Shown here: piece by piece, positions 2,957-46,644 of the stretch
How the letters are laid out: every line of letters starts with the position of its first letter
Numbering within the stretch: position 1 is the first letter of the stretch
Assembly: GCA_905181965.1 (NCBI GenBank)
Contig: CAJIZY010000003.1
Span: 1 to 64,000, forward strand
From: Akkermansiaceae bacterium
Lineage (GTDB): Bacteria; Verrucomicrobiota; Verrucomicrobiia; Verrucomicrobiales; Akkermansiaceae
Length of the DNA: 64,000 nt
Direction: 5' to 3'
Program-made: the position numbers and the translations under genes
Notes under the pieces: model-generated
Seen by the model: the letters and a program-made list of their open reading frames with translations, nothing else
Databases searched by the model: none
What the model was told of the DNA's origin: nothing

Positions 2957-3850
2957 ATGAAGAAGTTCTGGTTCTCTCTCCTCTCCATCATTATGCCCGC
3001 CTCAGCGGTCACATTTCAAGATAACGACACAGTCGTACTCCTCGGAAACACCATGATCGAACGGGCCCAAAAATATGGCCATCTCGAAACAGCGATCAAT
3101 CTCTCGGCTGGAAGGAAGAAACTAAAATTCCGTAATCTCGGTTGGAGTGGCGATACCGTCTTCGGCCACGCCCGGAGTTACTTTGGCCCGCCCAAGGAAG
3201 GCTTTGATCGACTCAAATCCGACCTCACCGAGCTTAAGCCCAACCTCGTCATCGTTTGCTACGGTGCGGTCGCTGCCTATGACGGAGAAAAAGGACTTCT
3301 CGAATTCATCGCTGGATACGAAACTCTTCTCTCGATGATTAAATCATCCGCGAGCCCTCGTGAGATCGTGATCGTCTCACCCCCACCCGCCGAATCCCTC
3401 GGCTCGCCCATGCCTGATATGAGTGAGCACAACAAGCGGCTCGCCCTTTATGCAGAGGCTCTTGGTAAACTCGCCCGAAAACACAAACTCCAATTCGCAG
3501 ACTTCTTTACCACTCTTGGGAAAAGCAAAGGCCTCACCGACAACGGCCTCCATTTCACGCCTGAAGGCTACCAAACCGCAGCTCCAAAATTTGTCGAAGC
3601 ACTCGGTCTTTCCCTTGCTACCGAGAACCAACTTCAAAGCGAGCACGCCCGCAAACTCCGCGAAGCAACCATTGCTAAAAACAAGCTCTTTTTCTTCCGC
3701 TGGCGCCCCGCCAACGAAACCTACCTCCGCCTCTTCCGCAAACACGAGCAAGGCAACAACGTCAAAGAGCTTCCGATGTTTGACCCGCTCATCGCCGACG
3801 CCGAAAAGCAAATCGAAGCCCTTAAAAAAACCACTCTCTCCCTTAAGTAG
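2957..3850 (+). CDS. Secreted SGNH-hydrolase-like protein with altered catalytic blocks
   Basis: A protein of 297 residues with a signal peptide (residues 1-17) and an SGNH/GDSL-type alpha/beta fold of the kind often encoded next to PVC dehydrogenase-cytochrome proteins. Block I, normally GDS, reads GNT in VVLLGNTMIER; block II NLGWSGDTVFG is intact; block III, normally GxN, reads YGAVAAYDG; block V, LTDNGLHFTPEGY, keeps its Asp and His. So the nucleophile serine and oxyanion asparagine are not at their usual places, and esterase activity is doubtful. A C-terminal extension of about 90 charged residues follows the domain. Two bases separate it from the large PVC gene, so they are probably co-transcribed. 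I infer an accessory or carbohydrate-binding role in the periplasm; this is not shown by the sequence. Confidence 0.8.
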   Translation: MKKFWFSLLSIIMPASAVTFQDNDTVVLLGNTMIERAQKYGHLETAINLSAGRKKLKFRNLGWSGDTVFGHARSYFGPPKEGFDRLKSDLTELKPNLVIVCYGAVAAYDGEKGLLEFIAGYETLLSMIKSSASPREIVIVSPPPAESLGSPMPDMSEHNKRLALYAEALGKLARKHKLQFADFFTTLGKSKGLTDNGLHFTPEGYQTAAPKFVEALGLSLATENQLQSEHARKLREATIAKNKLFFFRWRPANETYLRLFRKHEQGNNVKELPMFDPLIADAEKQIEALKKTTLSLK

Positions 3851-3852
3851 AA

Positions 3853-6800
3853 ATGATCACCCGACTTCTCCTCGCGGTCTCTCTCACGACCTTACCAGCG
3901 TTCGCCCAACGCGGACTCAAAGATATTCCTGACCCAGATCCAATCAAACAAGCCGCCGCTTTCAACCTTCCGGAAGGGATGGAGATCCAGCTCGTTGCTT
4001 CAGATCCCATGATCGCGAAGCCGGTGCAGATGAACTTCGATTCCAAGGGCCGTCTCTGGCTCGTCTCCAGTGGTATGTATCCACACATCGTTCCTGGCGC
4101 TGAAGAAAACGACAAGGTCCTCATTCTAGAGGACACGAACGGTGATGGTGTTGCCGACAAGCGCACTGTCTTTGCCGACAACCTGCACATTCCTACTGCA
4201 GTCCTCCCAGCAGATGGTGGAGCTTATGTCGCCAACTCCACCGAGATCATCTTCCTGAAAGATACTGATGGTGATGGAAAAGCTGATCAACGCCGGGTCG
4301 TCCTTTCCGGCTTTGGGACTGAGGACACCCACCACATCGTCCACACTTTTGAACAAGGCCCAGATGGCATGCTCTATTTCCTTCAATCCATTTATATCCA
4401 CAGCCACCTTGAGACCCCTTACGGTGTTCGGCGGCTCATGGGCGGTGGCATCTGGCACTTCCGCCCCGAAACTCAACGCGCCGAGATCCTATCCAAAGGC
4501 CTTATCAACCCTTGGGGATTCATCTTTGACGAACACGGCCAAACATTCGCGACTGATGGAGCCGGCGGTCACGGCATCAATGATATTTTTCCACGCTCTG
4601 TCTTCCGCACTTCACCCGGGGCCAAACGTATCGTAGATGGCCTCAACCCGGGACAGCCCAAGCTTTGTGGCTTGGAAATCCTCTCCGGATCCCACATCCC
4701 AGAAAAGCTTCGCGGCGTCCTGATTGCGCCTGACTTCCGTGGCCATCGCATCAATGCCTACCGCCTAAAACCCGAGGGTTCATCTTACAACTCAACCCGC
4801 ATCGAGGACTTCCTGAGTTCCTCTCACCGCGCCTTCCGTCCCATCGACGTCAAAATGGGACCCGATGGGGCACTTTATATTGCTGACTGGTATAATCCCA
4901 TCATTCAGCATGGCGAAGTCGATTTCCGCGACGATCGCCGCGACCACTCACGGGGCCGCATCTGGCGTGTTACCTTTAAAGGTCAACCGCTCATTGAGAA
5001 AAAGGACTTCTCTAAATTCTCAATCAAAGAACTCCTCGCTCACACCATTTCAAAAGAACGAGTCCACCGCGAACAAGCTCGCAACGAGCTTCGCACCCGC
5101 ACCAATGTTCTCCCAGAACTCAGCGCCTGGAGCAGCAGACTCAGCGATGATTTCTCCCGCATGCAAGCGATGTGGAATCATCAGGCCGTCAACCACACCG
5201 CCGTCGAGCTCATCAAATCCCTCCTCGCATCTGACGATCCCCGCTACCGCGCGGCCGCTCTTCGCGTCATCTATCATCGCCACACCGAAGTCCCCGGCGG
5301 CGGCGATATCGTCAAAAAAGCCATCAATGACCAGAACGGACGGGTCCGCCTATGGGCCGTGAGTTGTCTCGCCCAAATGCCTGGGCCTGACTCAGTTCCC
5401 ACTGCCCTCCAAGCCCTCAATCATCCAGTCGACAAGACTATGGATTTCGCGCTCTGGTCTATCGTCCGCGAACACCAAGAGCATTGGGCTCCAAAATTTG
5501 AGGCTGGCAAGCCTGTCTTCGGAGACAAACTCCCACACCTTATCTTTGCAATGAAAGCCCTTGGGAAGTCACTTTCGCTCGAATCCATCTTCACCAGCCT
5601 CGACAATGGGACCCTCACCCCGACCGAGCGCAAAGATGCCATCTCAGTCATTTCACAAGTTGGCTCCGCAAACGACCTGAGCCGCCTCTTCAGACTAGCG
5701 CCCAAAGAACCGGTCATCCTCGACCAGCTCGTCACTGCTGCTCAAATTCGAAAACTTCAGCCAACGGAGGGTAAAGAACAGCTTCTGCCCTTCCTCGATT
5801 CGAAGAAACCGACTGTCTTCGCAAGCGCTGCGAAACTTGCCGGTCTTTGGAAGTTCGCTCCTGCCCGCAACAAGTTGGTAACTGCTTTCACTCAGTCACC
5901 CGCTAAGCGCCAAGCCGCAGCCGAGGGACTTCGCCTCTTCGGCGACGAGGAAACGATCAAATTCTTTCTCAAGCTTTCGAAGGAATCTCCCGACGAAGCG
6001 ACTCGCGTCATTGCGGTGAAGGAACTGGCTAAAATTGCTCCCGATCGAGCTGCCGCCAGCGCCGTGACCTTATTGCAGCAAGACAAGGCAGGAAAAGACG
6101 AACACCGCTTATTTACGAGCTTCCTGCAAAGCGCCAGAGCCTCTACTTCGCTTGCTAAAGCGCTTGAGGGAAAAACCCTGCCCACCAAAATCGCCACTCT
6201 CGGTCTCCAGCGCGCCGGCACCTCTGGGCGACCACCCAAGGACCTAATGGCGGCCTTACAACTCTCCGGAAAGCTCAAGCCAATGTCTCAACAACCCTCC
6301 AGCGCAGATATGGCCAAGCTCATCGAGCGCGTGCGAACGGAAGGCGATCCTCATCGCGGCGAAACGGTTTATCGGCGGGCCGATCTCCAGTGCATCGCAT
6401 GCCACGCCATCGGCGGAGTCGGCAGCCCAATCGGCCCCGACCTCGTCAGCATCGGAGCCAGCGCCCCGGTCGACTACCTTATCACCTCGCTTCTCAATCC
6501 TAACGACAAGATCAAGGAAGGCTACCACACCACCTTAGTCAGCGAAAAAAATGGGAACGCTCACACAGGTGGTTTGGTCAGCGAAAGTGATACCGAAGTT
6601 GTCCTCCGCGACTACGCGGGCCAGATGAACCGTATCGCCAGGAGTGACATCAAGAACATCACCATCAGCCCCGTTTCCATGATGCCACCCGGGCTCACCA
6701 CCGGGCTTAGGGAAGACCAGTTCATAGACTTAGTTCGATTTCTCTCCGAGTTAGGTAAGGACGGTGACTTTAAGGTTAGCGCGAAACCTATCATCCGCGA

Positions 6801-7197
6801 CTACCTGGTCTTGCAGCCTCACCCAAGAACTGTTGATGGCATGGGCCACTATGGAACCGCCGTCTTTTCCGAGAAATTCGAGGGCTACCAATGGCAGACC
6901 TACGGCAGTAAAGTCAGCGGAGAACTCTTACCTTCTGAACTTCCCAAAGTCAGAGGTCGAGGCCGTAACACCTGGGGAGTCGCTCGCTTTGGCATCACTC
7001 AAAAAGGCAAAGTGAAACTCAAGATCAACGACACCATTCTGCTAGATCTCTTCGCCGGTAAGAAAGAAATCGTTCTTCCTGAAAAGGGCCCTGCCATCAT
7101 TGAGCTCGCCGGAAACGAAGATCCCGAGCATTTCACTCTCGCCGTGAATTCCGCTTACCGCCAGGCTCCTGTCTTACTCGAAATCGTCATCAAATGA
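3853..7197 (+). CDS. PVC-type membrane-bound dehydrogenase/HEAT-repeat/c-type cytochrome protein
   Basis: Large exported protein (1114 residues, signal peptide 1-18). Residues ~30-390 look like a soluble glucose/sorbosone-dehydrogenase-type beta-propeller (EILSKGLINPWGFIFD, GPDGALYIADWYNP). Residues ~400-800 are HEAT-like helical repeats. A c-type haem site CIACH (C847, C850, H851) follows with the IGPDLVSIG and LLNPNDKI elements of the PVC haem-binding domain. The C-terminal ~170 residues form a separate beta-rich domain. Such proteins are common in Planctomycetota and Verrucomicrobiota and are thought to oxidise sugars or alcohols in the periplasm, passing electrons to the haem; the substrate is unknown. 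The stop overlaps the next ATG by four bases (ATGA), so the three genes from 2957 to 8378 form an operon. Confidence 0.88.
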   Translation: MITRLLLAVSLTTLPAFAQRGLKDIPDPDPIKQAAAFNLPEGMEIQLVASDPMIAKPVQMNFDSKGRLWLVSSGMYPHIVPGAEENDKVLILEDTNGDGVADKRTVFADNLHIPTAVLPADGGAYVANSTEIIFLKDTDGDGKADQRRVVLSGFGTEDTHHIVHTFEQGPDGMLYFLQSIYIHSHLETPYGVRRLMGGGIWHFRPETQRAEILSKGLINPWGFIFDEHGQTFATDGAGGHGINDIFPRSVFRTSPGAKRIVDGLNPGQPKLCGLEILSGSHIPEKLRGVLIAPDFRGHRINAYRLKPEGSSYNSTRIEDFLSSSHRAFRPIDVKMGPDGALYIADWYNPIIQHGEVDFRDDRRDHSRGRIWRVTFKGQPLIEKKDFSKFSIKELLAHTISKERVHREQARNELRTRTNVLPELSAWSSRLSDDFSRMQAMWNHQAVNHTAVELIKSLLASDDPRYRAAALRVIYHRHTEVPGGGDIVKKAINDQNGRVRLWAVSCLAQMPGPDSVPTALQALNHPVDKTMDFALWSIVREHQEHWAPKFEAGKPVFGDKLPHLIFAMKALGKSLSLESIFTSLDNGTLTPTERKDAISVISQVGSANDLSRLFRLAPKEPVILDQLVTAAQIRKLQPTEGKEQLLPFLDSKKPTVFASAAKLAGLWKFAPARNKLVTAFTQSPAKRQAAAEGLRLFGDEETIKFFLKLSKESPDEATRVIAVKELAKIAPDRAAASAVTLLQQDKAGKDEHRLFTSFLQSARASTSLAKALEGKTLPTKIATLGLQRAGTSGRPPKDLMAALQLSGKLKPMSQQPSSADMAKLIERVRTEGDPHRGETVYRRADLQCIACHAIGGVGSPIGPDLVSIGASAPVDYLITSLLNPNDKIKEGYHTTLVSEKNGNAHTGGLVSESDTEVVLRDYAGQMNRIARSDIKNITISPVSMMPPGLTTGLREDQFIDLVRFLSELGKDGDFKVSAKPIIRDYLVLQPHPRTVDGMGHYGTAVFSEKFEGYQWQTYGSKVSGELLPSELPKVRGRGRNTWGVARFGITQKGKVKLKINDTILLDLFAGKKEIVLPEKGPAIIELAGNEDPEHFTLAVNSAYRQAPVLLEIVIK

Positions 7198-8378
7198 AAC
7201 TCCTCAAACTTACCCTCCCCATCGGCCTCGTGGCCCTCGTCCTGGCAGCGCACGACTCCGCCAAAGACAAACCCAGCCACGCACGCCAGGTAGTCTCGCC
7301 CGGTGTTTACACCGAAGGAGCCTCTTTTGGTGATGTCGACGGCGATGGCAAGATCGACCTCCTCACTGGGCCCTTGTGGTGGTCCGGCCCCGAATTTAAG
7401 AAATCAAACCGCTACCGCCCGGGCGAAGCCGTCCCTGCCAAAGGCTACAAACACAACTCTTTTCAAAGCTGGGTTCTTGATATCAATGGCGATGGACGTA
7501 GCGACATCTTCCAGATCGCACACGATGGTAAATTCCACCTTGACCTCTACTTACAGCCCGAAAAACAATCGCAGAACTGGGTTAAGCATCGCGTGGTGGC
7601 GAAGATCGGCAACGAATCACCCGAATTAACAGACCTTACTGGTGATGGTAATCTTGAGCTCGTCGCGATGAAGGATGGGCGCTTCGGTTTCTTCACTCCA
7701 GATCCCAAAGCTCCCGAGCAGCCCTGGACTTTCCACTCCATCTCGCCCGAGCGCACCAAGTCGCCTTACTATCACGGGCTCGGCTTCGGTGATCTCAATG
7801 GCGACGGTCGCGCTTTCTTATTGAGAAAGAAGGTTGGTATGAAGCTCCCACCGATCCCCTCAAATCTGGAAATTGGAATTTTCACCGGGACTGATTTGGT
7901 CTTGTTCAACAACTACATCGACATCGATGGCGATGGCGACAACGATGTCGTTTCGAGTACCGCGGCGCACTCCTGGGGACTCGCCTGGTTTGAAAACCAA
8001 AAACGCGAAGGCCGTATCACTTTCAAGAAACACAACCTCATTCCCGAGGACAAATCACCCGGTATTGGGGACGTGACATTTAGCCAGGCCCACGCTCTTG
8101 TAGCAGGCGACTTCAACAAAGACGGGCTCACCGACTTCGCAACTGGTAAGCGTTATTTTGCGCATAACGGAAACGATCCTGGGGCTAACCAACCTGCCGT
8201 TCTTTACTGGTTTGAGCTCGTCCGCGATGACAACGGAGCCCGGTTCACTCCCCACCTCCTCGACACCGATTCAGGGGTCGGGACTCAGCTTGCCGCTGGC
8301 GATGTGAATGGCGACGGCAAAACTGACCTTGGGGTTGGAAACAAGAAAGGGGTTTTTATCTTTAGCAGCTTGAAATAA
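7194..8378 (+). CDS. Secreted FG-GAP/VCBS-repeat beta-propeller protein
   Basis: Signal peptide (residues 1-19) and at least five calcium-binding repeats of the form DxDGDGxxD: DVDGDGKIDLL, DINGDGRSDIF, DIDGDGDNDVV, DFNKDGLTDFA and DVNGDGKTDLG. These make an integrin-like propeller, probably extracellular or periplasmic and a partner of the dehydrogenase encoded just upstream (ATGA overlap). Between about 7814 and 7895 the reading frame gives an odd segment (FLLRKKVGMKLPP), while the alternative frame gives LIEKEGWYEAPTDPLKSG, a typical family sequence. Two compensating indels therefore sit inside the gene; the real protein likely has the second version. Function unknown. Confidence 0.82.
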   Translation: MKLLKLTLPIGLVALVLAAHDSAKDKPSHARQVVSPGVYTEGASFGDVDGDGKIDLLTGPLWWSGPEFKKSNRYRPGEAVPAKGYKHNSFQSWVLDINGDGRSDIFQIAHDGKFHLDLYLQPEKQSQNWVKHRVVAKIGNESPELTDLTGDGNLELVAMKDGRFGFFTPDPKAPEQPWTFHSISPERTKSPYYHGLGFGDLNGDGRAFLLRKKVGMKLPPIPSNLEIGIFTGTDLVLFNNYIDIDGDGDNDVVSSTAAHSWGLAWFENQKREGRITFKKHNLIPEDKSPGIGDVTFSQAHALVAGDFNKDGLTDFATGKRYFAHNGNDPGANQPAVLYWFELVRDDNGARFTPHLLDTDSGVGTQLAAGDVNGDGKTDLGVGNKKGVFIFSSLK

Positions 8379-43958: not shown

Positions 43959-46644
43959 ATGACTTCGGCAGAGATTCGCAACAGCTTCCTCGACTTCTTT
44001 AAGGAGAAACAGCACACCACTGTCCCCTCCGCCTCTATTCTGCCACAGTCGCCCGGACTCCTTTTTACAAACGCAGGAATGAATCAGTTTGTTCCTTACT
44101 TCCTTGGCACTGAGAAAGCTCCCTACGATCCTCCACGCGCTGCCGATACCCAGAAATGCATCCGTGCCGGCGGCAAACACAACGACCTTGAGGATGTCGG
44201 CTATGACACCTACCACCACACCTTTTTTGAAATGCTGGGGAACTGGTCCTTCGGCAACTACTTCAAAGAAGAAGCGATCGCATGGGCTTGGGAACTCGTC
44301 GTCGAACGCTGGGGACTTCCAGCCAACCGGCTCTACGCGACGGTCTACGCTCCCAGCGAAGGCGACCCTTCGGAATTTGATCATGAAGCCTACCAGCTCT
44401 GGAAAGGCTTCTTTGAAAAAGCCGGCCTCGATCCAAAGATCCACATCGTTAATGGGAACGTCGAAGACAACTTCTGGAAAATGGGAGATACCGGGCCGTG
44501 CGGCCCCTGTTCAGAACTCCATGTCGACATGACACCCAACGGCGACACCGGCGGAAAACTTGTAAATATGGATTCCGATCTCTGCATCGAGATCTGGAAC
44601 CTCGTCTTCATCCAATACAATGCTGAAGAAGACGGCACTTACCGTGACCTCCCCTCCAAACACGTCGACACTGGCATGGGGTTCGAGCGTGTCTGCTCAC
44701 TCATTCAAAATACCAAGAACTTCACTGACTTTTCCAAAAAACCCACAAACTACGCTACCGATGTCTTCCAGCCAATTTTTCGTATGCTCGAAAAACTCAG
44801 CGGCAAAAAATACGTCGACGTCTACCCCGGCGAGGAATCCGATGCCCTCGAACAAGCCATCGCTTTCAGAGTGATCGCTGACCATATCCGCACCCTCAGC
44901 TTCTCGATCGCCGATAGTATAATCCCTGGCAATACCGGACGAAACTACGTCCTTCGCCGTATCTTACGACGCGCTGTCAAATACGGCCGTACTCTCGGAT
45001 TCAATGGCAACGAACCCTTCCTCCCTAGACTCGTCGACACACTCGTCGAGGAATTCAGCCACGTCTTCCCCGAAATCAAAACCAGAGCCGCAGTCATTAA
45101 AGAAACTCTCACCCTTGAAGAAGAGTCTTTCAATAAAACCCTCGACCGGGGAATGGAAAAGTTTGAGAATTCTGTTATTGAAAACGTCTTTCCTCCGGAG
45201 GATGCCTTCCAACTCTACGACACCTTTGGCTTCCCCCTCGATCTTACCGCTCTTCTTTGTCGTGAGCGAGGCATCACTCTCGATGAAAAAGCGGTCGAAG
45301 CCCGTATGGAAGAGGCCCGCAAACTTTCCCGAGCTTCACAAAAGAAAATGGTAGTCCGTGCGACTGAGATTTCTACCGATGTTATCACCGAATTCCTCGG
45401 ATTCGAAAAAAACTCCTGCGAGGCAATCGTTCTCGAAATTCACGGCAATCTCGTCATCACCGATAAAACCGTCTTCTTCACCGAAATGGGCGGACAGGAA
45501 GGTGACACCGGAACCCTTAATGATTCCACCATCACCAGCACCCAACAGATCGGCTCCGCGATCGCTCACCAAATCGAAGGTAATATTCCTGCAGTTGGCG
45601 ACACCGTAGATCTGACAATCAATCGTGAGCGCCGTTCCTATCGAAGCTCACCACACCGCCACCCACCTCCTCCACTGGGCTATACACAAAGTCATCTCAC
45701 CCGACGCTTCCCAACAGGGGTCCAGCGTTTCGCCAGATCGCTTGACCTTTGATTTTAATTCAAAAGCGGTCACTCCAGAACAAATCGAAGCCATTGAGGA
45801 AAGAGTTAATTCCGCAATCAAAGCTGACGATACGGTTTCGTGGGTTGAAGTCCCACACTCAAAGGTGAAAGACCGCGAAGACATCATGCAGTTCTTCGGT
45901 GATAAATATGGTGACCTTGTCCGCGTTGTCCAAATAGGAGGGGGTGACAAAACTCTCGACGGTTATTCGATGGAACTCTGCGGTGGAACTCATGTCCGAA
46001 AAACTTCTGACATCGGTATCTTCAAAATTAAATCCGAAGGATCTACTGGAGCCGGAATTCGCCGCATCGAAGCCGTCTGCGGCCCCGCTGCCGAAGCCTT
46101 TCTCGGCGAACAACAAGAGAAGGAATCCGCAGAAAAATCCGAAGCCCTAGCGAAGCTAGCGAAGGCCAACGAGGCCCTTGCCAAACTTGATGCTCCCACC
46201 CTTTTGGTTCCCGATAATGCCCGAGCCTTCGAAGTGAAAAATCAGGCAATCGAAGCAGAAAAGGCCCTTAAAAAGGCCCAAGCTACTGGAGCAGCCCGCA
46301 TGGCTGACTCGCTTATTGCCGAGAAAAATATCACCGAAAACATCGTCATCTCCACTGCAGGGTCACCCGCTCTTCTTCAAGAGTTGCTGAACGGCTTGAG
46401 GAAAACCCACTTCACCCAAGCCGCCTTTATCGTAATCGACGACGGCAACAAACTCCACCTTGGCGCATTTTGCGGAGAAGAAGGAAAGAGAAATGGTCAC
46501 GGTGCCGGGACTCTCATTCAAAAACTTGGGCCCATCGCTGGAGGAAAAGGAGGGGGTAAACCTGACATGGCTCGAGGCGCCGCTTCCGACCGCGACAAAA
46601 TCAGTGAGCTCGCCACAGCTGCAAACACAGAGCTTGGACTTTAG
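43959..46644 (+). CDS. alaS: Alanyl-tRNA synthetase, split by a one-base insertion
   Basis: About 895 residues in total. N-terminal class II catalytic domain (SAEIRNSFLDFFKEKQH, LLFTNAGMNQF, GGKHNDLEDVG, NTGRNYVLRRI). Editing domain with HHTATHLLHWAIH and SMELCGGTHV (the zinc-binding His and Cys), and the C-Ala tail (GGGKPDMARGA). The first frame ends with DLTINRERRS, the second starts at SIEAHHTATH. An extra T at about 45639 shifts the frame (CGT TCC T ATC GAA). Both halves are well conserved and the enzyme is essential, so a sequence error is more likely than a real mutation. Confidence 0.96.

Follow-up and report, generated by a model that had tools for sequence, protein, structure and literature searches.

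Here we describe a three-gene operon on contig CAJIZY010000003.1 of an Akkermansiaceae bacterium (assembly GCA_905181965.1), within a stretch of 64,000 nucleotides (the window) whose positions serve as coordinates throughout. Its genes, labelled S, D and F, encode an exported protein with the fold of SGNH/GDSL hydrolases, an exported haem-binding CxxCH protein of the type named after the Planctomycetes–Verrucomicrobia–Chlamydiae (PVC) group, and an exported FG-GAP repeat protein. We conclude that S is probably a non-hydrolytic subunit of D, a putative periplasmic sugar-oxidising haem dehydrogenase, to which F is an optional addition. S is highly unlikely to be a classical SGNH hydrolase, and very likely functions with D.

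The three genes lie consecutively on the + strand, with a gap of two bases between S (2957–3850; 297 amino acids, aa) and D (3853–7197; 1114 aa) and an ATGA overlap between D and F (7194–8378; 394 aa). These coordinates agree with the operon proposed in an original prediction made from the DNA letters, and all three N-termini resemble signal peptides by eye, as the export proposed there would have it. S matches Pfam Lipase_GDSL_2 (PF13472) at 8.9e-15, while D exceeds the cut-offs of both NCBIfam families of PVC-type haem-binding CxxCH proteins, TIGR02604 (261 bits; cut-off 122.2) and TIGR02603 (118.1 bits; cut-off 68.15), and also matches DUF7133 and HEAT repeats in Pfam. F matches Pfam FG-GAP_3 (2.4e-27; 95.8 bits; cut-off 26.9). 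No NCBIfam family was found for S or F at E-values up to 0.1, and a PHROGs search returned nothing useful.

Scanning genomes with a family alignment, we confirmed at least 582 relatives of S and retained the best 80 (hereafter the 80 relatives); residues were read from an alignment of these with 20 wider sequences taken from searches of the bacterium's own genome and of the phylum, at least two of which share their contigs with members of the 80. At the nucleophile position of block I, S has Thr32 (3050–3052), in a G-N-T motif, and the 80 relatives have Thr in 77 cases and Ser in one, serine thus being absent from 79. The oxyanion Asn of the block III GxN is replaced by Val105 (3269–3271) in a G-A-V motif and is gone from 73 of the relatives (Asn in seven). 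In block V, the Asp of D-G-x-H in the SGNH hydrolases 1yzf and 4iyj aligns with Asn196 (3542–3544) in the T-D-N-G-L-H of S, a position occupied by Asn in 72 relatives and by Asp in eight; the adjacent D195 is one residue off the catalytic position and variable, being Asp in 24/80. His199 (3551–3553), present in 69 relatives and gone in 11, is the sole classical catalytic residue kept in S. Thr, Asn and His occur together in 65/80, and Ser, Asp and His together in none. Among the 20 wider sequences, 12 combine Thr, Asn and His, and position 32 lacks Ser in 19. The remaining one (L053, matching weakly at E 2e-5) turned out to be a classical SGNH hydrolase, its start carrying GDS when read as L170; it is not an S relative in the sense of the 80, to which the absence of Ser+Asp+His applies. 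Of ten PF13472 loci in the bacterium's own genome, six have a normal GDS, the remainder being S itself, a fused relative (GNG), one GTS and one locus not read in frame.

S therefore shares with the SGNH/GDSL hydrolases (PF13472; nearest 7br2, then acetylxylan and sialate esterases) the fold, the Pfam match, the block II Gly-Asp and the block V His, whereas its nucleophile Ser has become Thr, its catalytic Asp has become Asn and its oxyanion Asn is absent; it differs further in a conserved C-terminal signature and in its tie to a haem dehydrogenase. The original prediction had correctly read the G-N-T of block I and the loss of the GxN Asn, whereas the Asp-His end that it took to be retained is in fact Asn196-His199. 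Its claim that S is a non-hydrolytic partner and not a plain esterase is well supported by these residue counts and by the many relatives in which S adjoins D or is fused to it. Another serine was considered as nucleophile and rejected: the only serine invariant in the 80 relatives, S64, lies in an ordinary block II (GWSGDT), and its position holds E, A, T or P in 8/20 wider sequences.

All three genes are under purifying selection. Compared with five relatives, the ratio of non-synonymous to synonymous substitution rates (dN/dS) was 0.07–0.19 for S, 0.05–0.09 for D and 0.06–0.23 for F, with synonymous change near saturation for one relative (L062). The value for S led us to reject a decaying gene and, since Thr, Asn and His are also common to 65 of the 80 relatives, the residue pattern of S is not due to chance. 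Conservation in S is strongest in GNTxxER, RNLGWSGDT and ARSYFGPP and in the C-terminal signature (aa 241–277; 3677–3787) around RWRPxNETYLxxFRKHEQGxN, the RPxN core of which recurs in the majority of more distant fused relatives. The block II loop (aa 59–82; 3131–3202) is conserved as well.

The conserved Thr-Asn-His leaves room for binding or for unusual chemistry. S might be an active enzyme with a rebuilt site, using Thr as nucleophile or His to activate water, for example a deacylase or an acyl or glycosyl transferase that prepares a sugar which D then oxidises. Joint conservation of the three residues is not what random decay would leave, and the nearest folds are those of active esterases, both of which suit such an enzyme; the oxyanion Asn is nevertheless gone from 73 relatives and the His from 11, no relative has Ser+Asp+His, and we know of no SGNH enzyme with a Thr nucleophile, which also counts against the idea. 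We consider an active S unlikely and retain a non-hydrolytic subunit as the preferred reading.

That S belongs with D is indicated by the arrangement of the two genes in other genomes. In 60 of the 80 relatives D follows S downstream at a distance of no more than 600 bases, and in three more at about 735–741 bases; all 51 full-length D open reading frames (ORFs) carry CxxCH. When 240 genomes of the phylum were scanned, 17, the bacterium's own included, had S relatives at 1e-10; among the rows listed in that scan, 38 of the 52 distinct S-bearing frames exceed 900 aa, and every one of the 12 long S-bearing frames fetched is an S-D fusion in one ORF. Failure of the three genes to occur together in other genomes would have told against the original prediction; the S-D pair in fact co-occurs widely. 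In a tree of S with 99 tips, 86 stand-alone members cluster together (support 0.88) next to a clade of fused members, and other fused members fall on either side of the midpoint root; this hints at the splitting of a fused ancestor but is no proof of it. The bacterium's own genome holds another S-D pair (L054:3585–6706, on contig C11), in separate ORFs and with D spread over two of them.

The position of F is looser. It follows D in 18 of the 60 loci in which D lies within 600 bases of S; 30 have room and no F, and 12 have no room. Eleven of these 18 F genes share about 59% identity or more with the F of the window and seven share 28–31%. In one relative (L090) F forms the N-terminal part of an F-S fusion that D follows directly, and F-D fusions turned up in 8 of 18 regions retrieved around relatives of F; their D domains are 24–32% identical to the D of the window. 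The three-protein complex of the original prediction is thus less supported than the S-D pair (F after D in 18 of the 48 loci with room), though one F-S and several F-D fusions speak for it, and F is best read as an optional accessory partner used by part of the family. Of the 141 genomes searched from the order, 96 have an F relative at 1e-40; in the fusions of L145–L151 and L160 an F relative and a distant TIGR02604-type dehydrogenase form single ORFs of about 1540–1640 aa.

Could the three genes simply be neighbours by chance, with S a decaying esterase gene? The absence of F from 30 of 48 D-adjacent loci with room would be in keeping with this. The low dN/dS of S and the repeated S-D, F-S and F-D fusions are not, and with only about 23 TIGR02604 places (counted from 32 match rows) in a 2.64-Mb assembly that is 62% complete, adjacency by chance should be rare; we regard this explanation as scarcely credible.

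Structure prediction bears on whether the association of S with D is physical. Modelled alone, S was predicted well, with a predicted local distance difference test score (pLDDT) of 88 and a predicted template modelling score (pTM) of 0.87, although residues 61–80 and 251–270, which hold conserved motifs, were poorly predicted. Among solved structures the closest in fold is BT4096 (7br2; Z 19.3, root-mean-square deviation 3.8, 269 residues), and the other listed matches (Z 14.4–17.5) are nearly all SGNH-type esterases by title. A joined S-D chain of 841 aa was built from the relative L060, with the stop codon that separates the two genes read through and the chain cut off within the HEAT repeats of D. 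Modelled with AlphaFold2, its pTM was 0.90, and the linker (280–301) stayed below pLDDT 50 throughout (mean about 34–39). Because about 0.65 was reckoned for freely placed parts of such a size, a defined S-D arrangement is predicted, which suggests that S docks on D. We also looked for order gained on binding, which was expected of both poorly predicted stretches: the block means of the block II loop rose from 70 and 60 to 89 and 74 with D attached, in a loose comparison between the S of the window alone and the S of L060 in the joined chain (67% identical, different alignments).

Several observations weigh against S as a subunit of a sugar-oxidising D. The pTM of 0.90 comes from a single joined chain and is set against a rough reckoning of 0.65, and the C-terminal signature of S stays at a confidence of about 50 with and without D. 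No D was found in the flanking DNA examined for 17 of the 80 relatives, 16 with at least 1 kb of room and one with none, and among six close stand-alone S relatives, in about 16 kb each, a D match was found in two and none in four. In L069 (707–3139) and L080 (51–2714) S is fused behind a different propeller, which Pfam assigns to PQQ_2 in L080 and which was judged by eye to be similar in L069, with no neighbouring D. The frequent absence of F belongs here too, as do two sequence searches of the PDB: that with D returned no enzyme dependent on pyrroloquinoline quinone (PQQ) and was dominated by HEAT repeats, and that with the propeller alone gave only weak matches of NHL/teneurin type. The loci without D, the swap onto another propeller and the poorly predicted signature would all be expected if S were an ordinary protein resembling a carbohydrate-binding module, linked to D by shared regulation only and forming no physical complex. 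Such an explanation sits poorly with the S-D fusion in 12 of 12 long frames and with the pTM of the joined model, and we judge it distinctly improbable; a physical subunit of D remains our preferred account of S.

As to what D does, its fold, its fusions, its neighbours and two published systems together point to carbohydrate oxidation. The N-terminal beta-propeller (DUF7133; aa 33–385, 3949–5007) appears to have a sugar-dehydrogenase fold: for the propeller of L060, on which this was tested, the top 16 structural matches all have titles of sugar or PQQ-type dehydrogenases (Z 27.5–30.7), and other propellers score 24.3 and below. Weak matches to Pfam GSDH (E up to 0.1, best 1.4e-4) were obtained for 7 of 24 propellers, that of the window not being among those listed. 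A THH motif is conserved in D, and we take it to resemble the catalytic His region of PQQ sugar dehydrogenases. Towards the C-terminus, a haem domain (aa 831–965; 6343–6747) matched by TIGR02603 carries the haem motif CIACH (6391–6405) and resembles the solved diheme protein 7zs0. It is on this fold and this haem motif that the oxidation role proposed in the original prediction rests.

Fusions and neighbours of S-D in other genomes add a carbohydrate context. In L046 a 3-keto-disaccharide hydrolase (DUF1080) with haem c is fused to S-D, while in L048, L049 and, weakly, L050 S-D ends in a cupredoxin in place of the haem domain; L050 has an additional ThuA match below its cut-off. In Rubritalea profundi (L059, 8122–9793) a 3-keto-disaccharide hydrolase and a gluconolactonase-like gene adjoin the S-D-F operon. 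No DUF1080 gene was seen adjoining the operon of the window.

Comparison with known systems shows what is shared and what is particular. D has the propeller fold of PQQ sugar dehydrogenases (soluble glucose dehydrogenase, aldose sugar dehydrogenase, CAZy AA12) but differs from them in its lack of a PDB sequence match and in its added HEAT repeats and haem c, and its use of PQQ is putative. From other PVC-type CxxCH proteins it is set apart by a dedicated SGNH-like neighbour and, in part of the family, by F as third gene. Its TIGR02604–HEAT_2–haem c architecture, by which alone the two are likened here, is that of Lac161_ORF7 from a verrucomicrobial cosmid, the one case for which we found biochemistry: it is reported to hydrolyse lactose with a Km of 1.8 mM, and no SGNH partner is mentioned in the sections consulted (PMC5342196). 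In the LacABC 3-ketoglycoside pathway of other bacteria, DUF1080 proteins are proposed to act with a periplasmic lactose 3-dehydrogenase, oxidation of the sugar being followed by hydrolysis (PMC9007349); the DUF1080 modules found with S-D in L046 and L059 recall this pathway in gene content.

We therefore picture S-D(-F) as a modular exported oxidoreductase, made of three polypeptides in the window and of fused pairs elsewhere. S would dock on the N-terminal propeller and HEAT part of D and, being non-hydrolytic, would most likely hold or present a sugar or glycan to the propeller, which may oxidise it with PQQ or a similar cofactor; electrons would then pass to the C-terminal haem c, and F may act as an optional binding module in part of the family. 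Cofactor, substrate, electron path and the role of S are all inferences. More tentatively, and at somewhat less than even odds, SGNH pseudo-enzymes with a conserved Thr-Asn-His may have been adopted as subunits of PVC haem dehydrogenases, swapped among DUF7133 and PQQ_2 propellers and joined by modules of the FG-GAP and 3-keto-disaccharide hydrolase types; the whole would be a large uncharacterised periplasmic glycan-oxidising system that delivers electrons to haem c or cupredoxin.

In the open-licence literature, where long result lists were covered in part, we found no publication on an SGNH–TIGR02604 pair; almost nothing published was found there on PVC-type haem-binding proteins, and TIGR02603 is not mentioned in the main text of PMC8756737. 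Should S prove to be a dedicated pseudo-enzyme subunit, the roles of these proteins could be approached directly through the S-D, F-S and F-D fusions, and matches to the GDSL-lipase family in such operons should not be named lipases. The fusions with 3-keto-disaccharide hydrolase and cupredoxin make periplasmic glycan oxidation a testable proposal.

Two other loci in the window deserve mention. At 43959–46644 one gene, presumably for alanyl-tRNA synthetase, is split over two overlapping ORFs in different frames, and the assembly may therefore hold frame errors. Upstream of the operon and divergent from it, on the minus strand at 334–2781, lies a cluster encoding an MR_MLE-type dehydratase, an FAA hydrolase and short-chain dehydrogenases, which resembles an oxidative L-fucose/L-rhamnose route. 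Its reading frames are interrupted in the window and are single ORFs in the relative L055 (5998–9727).

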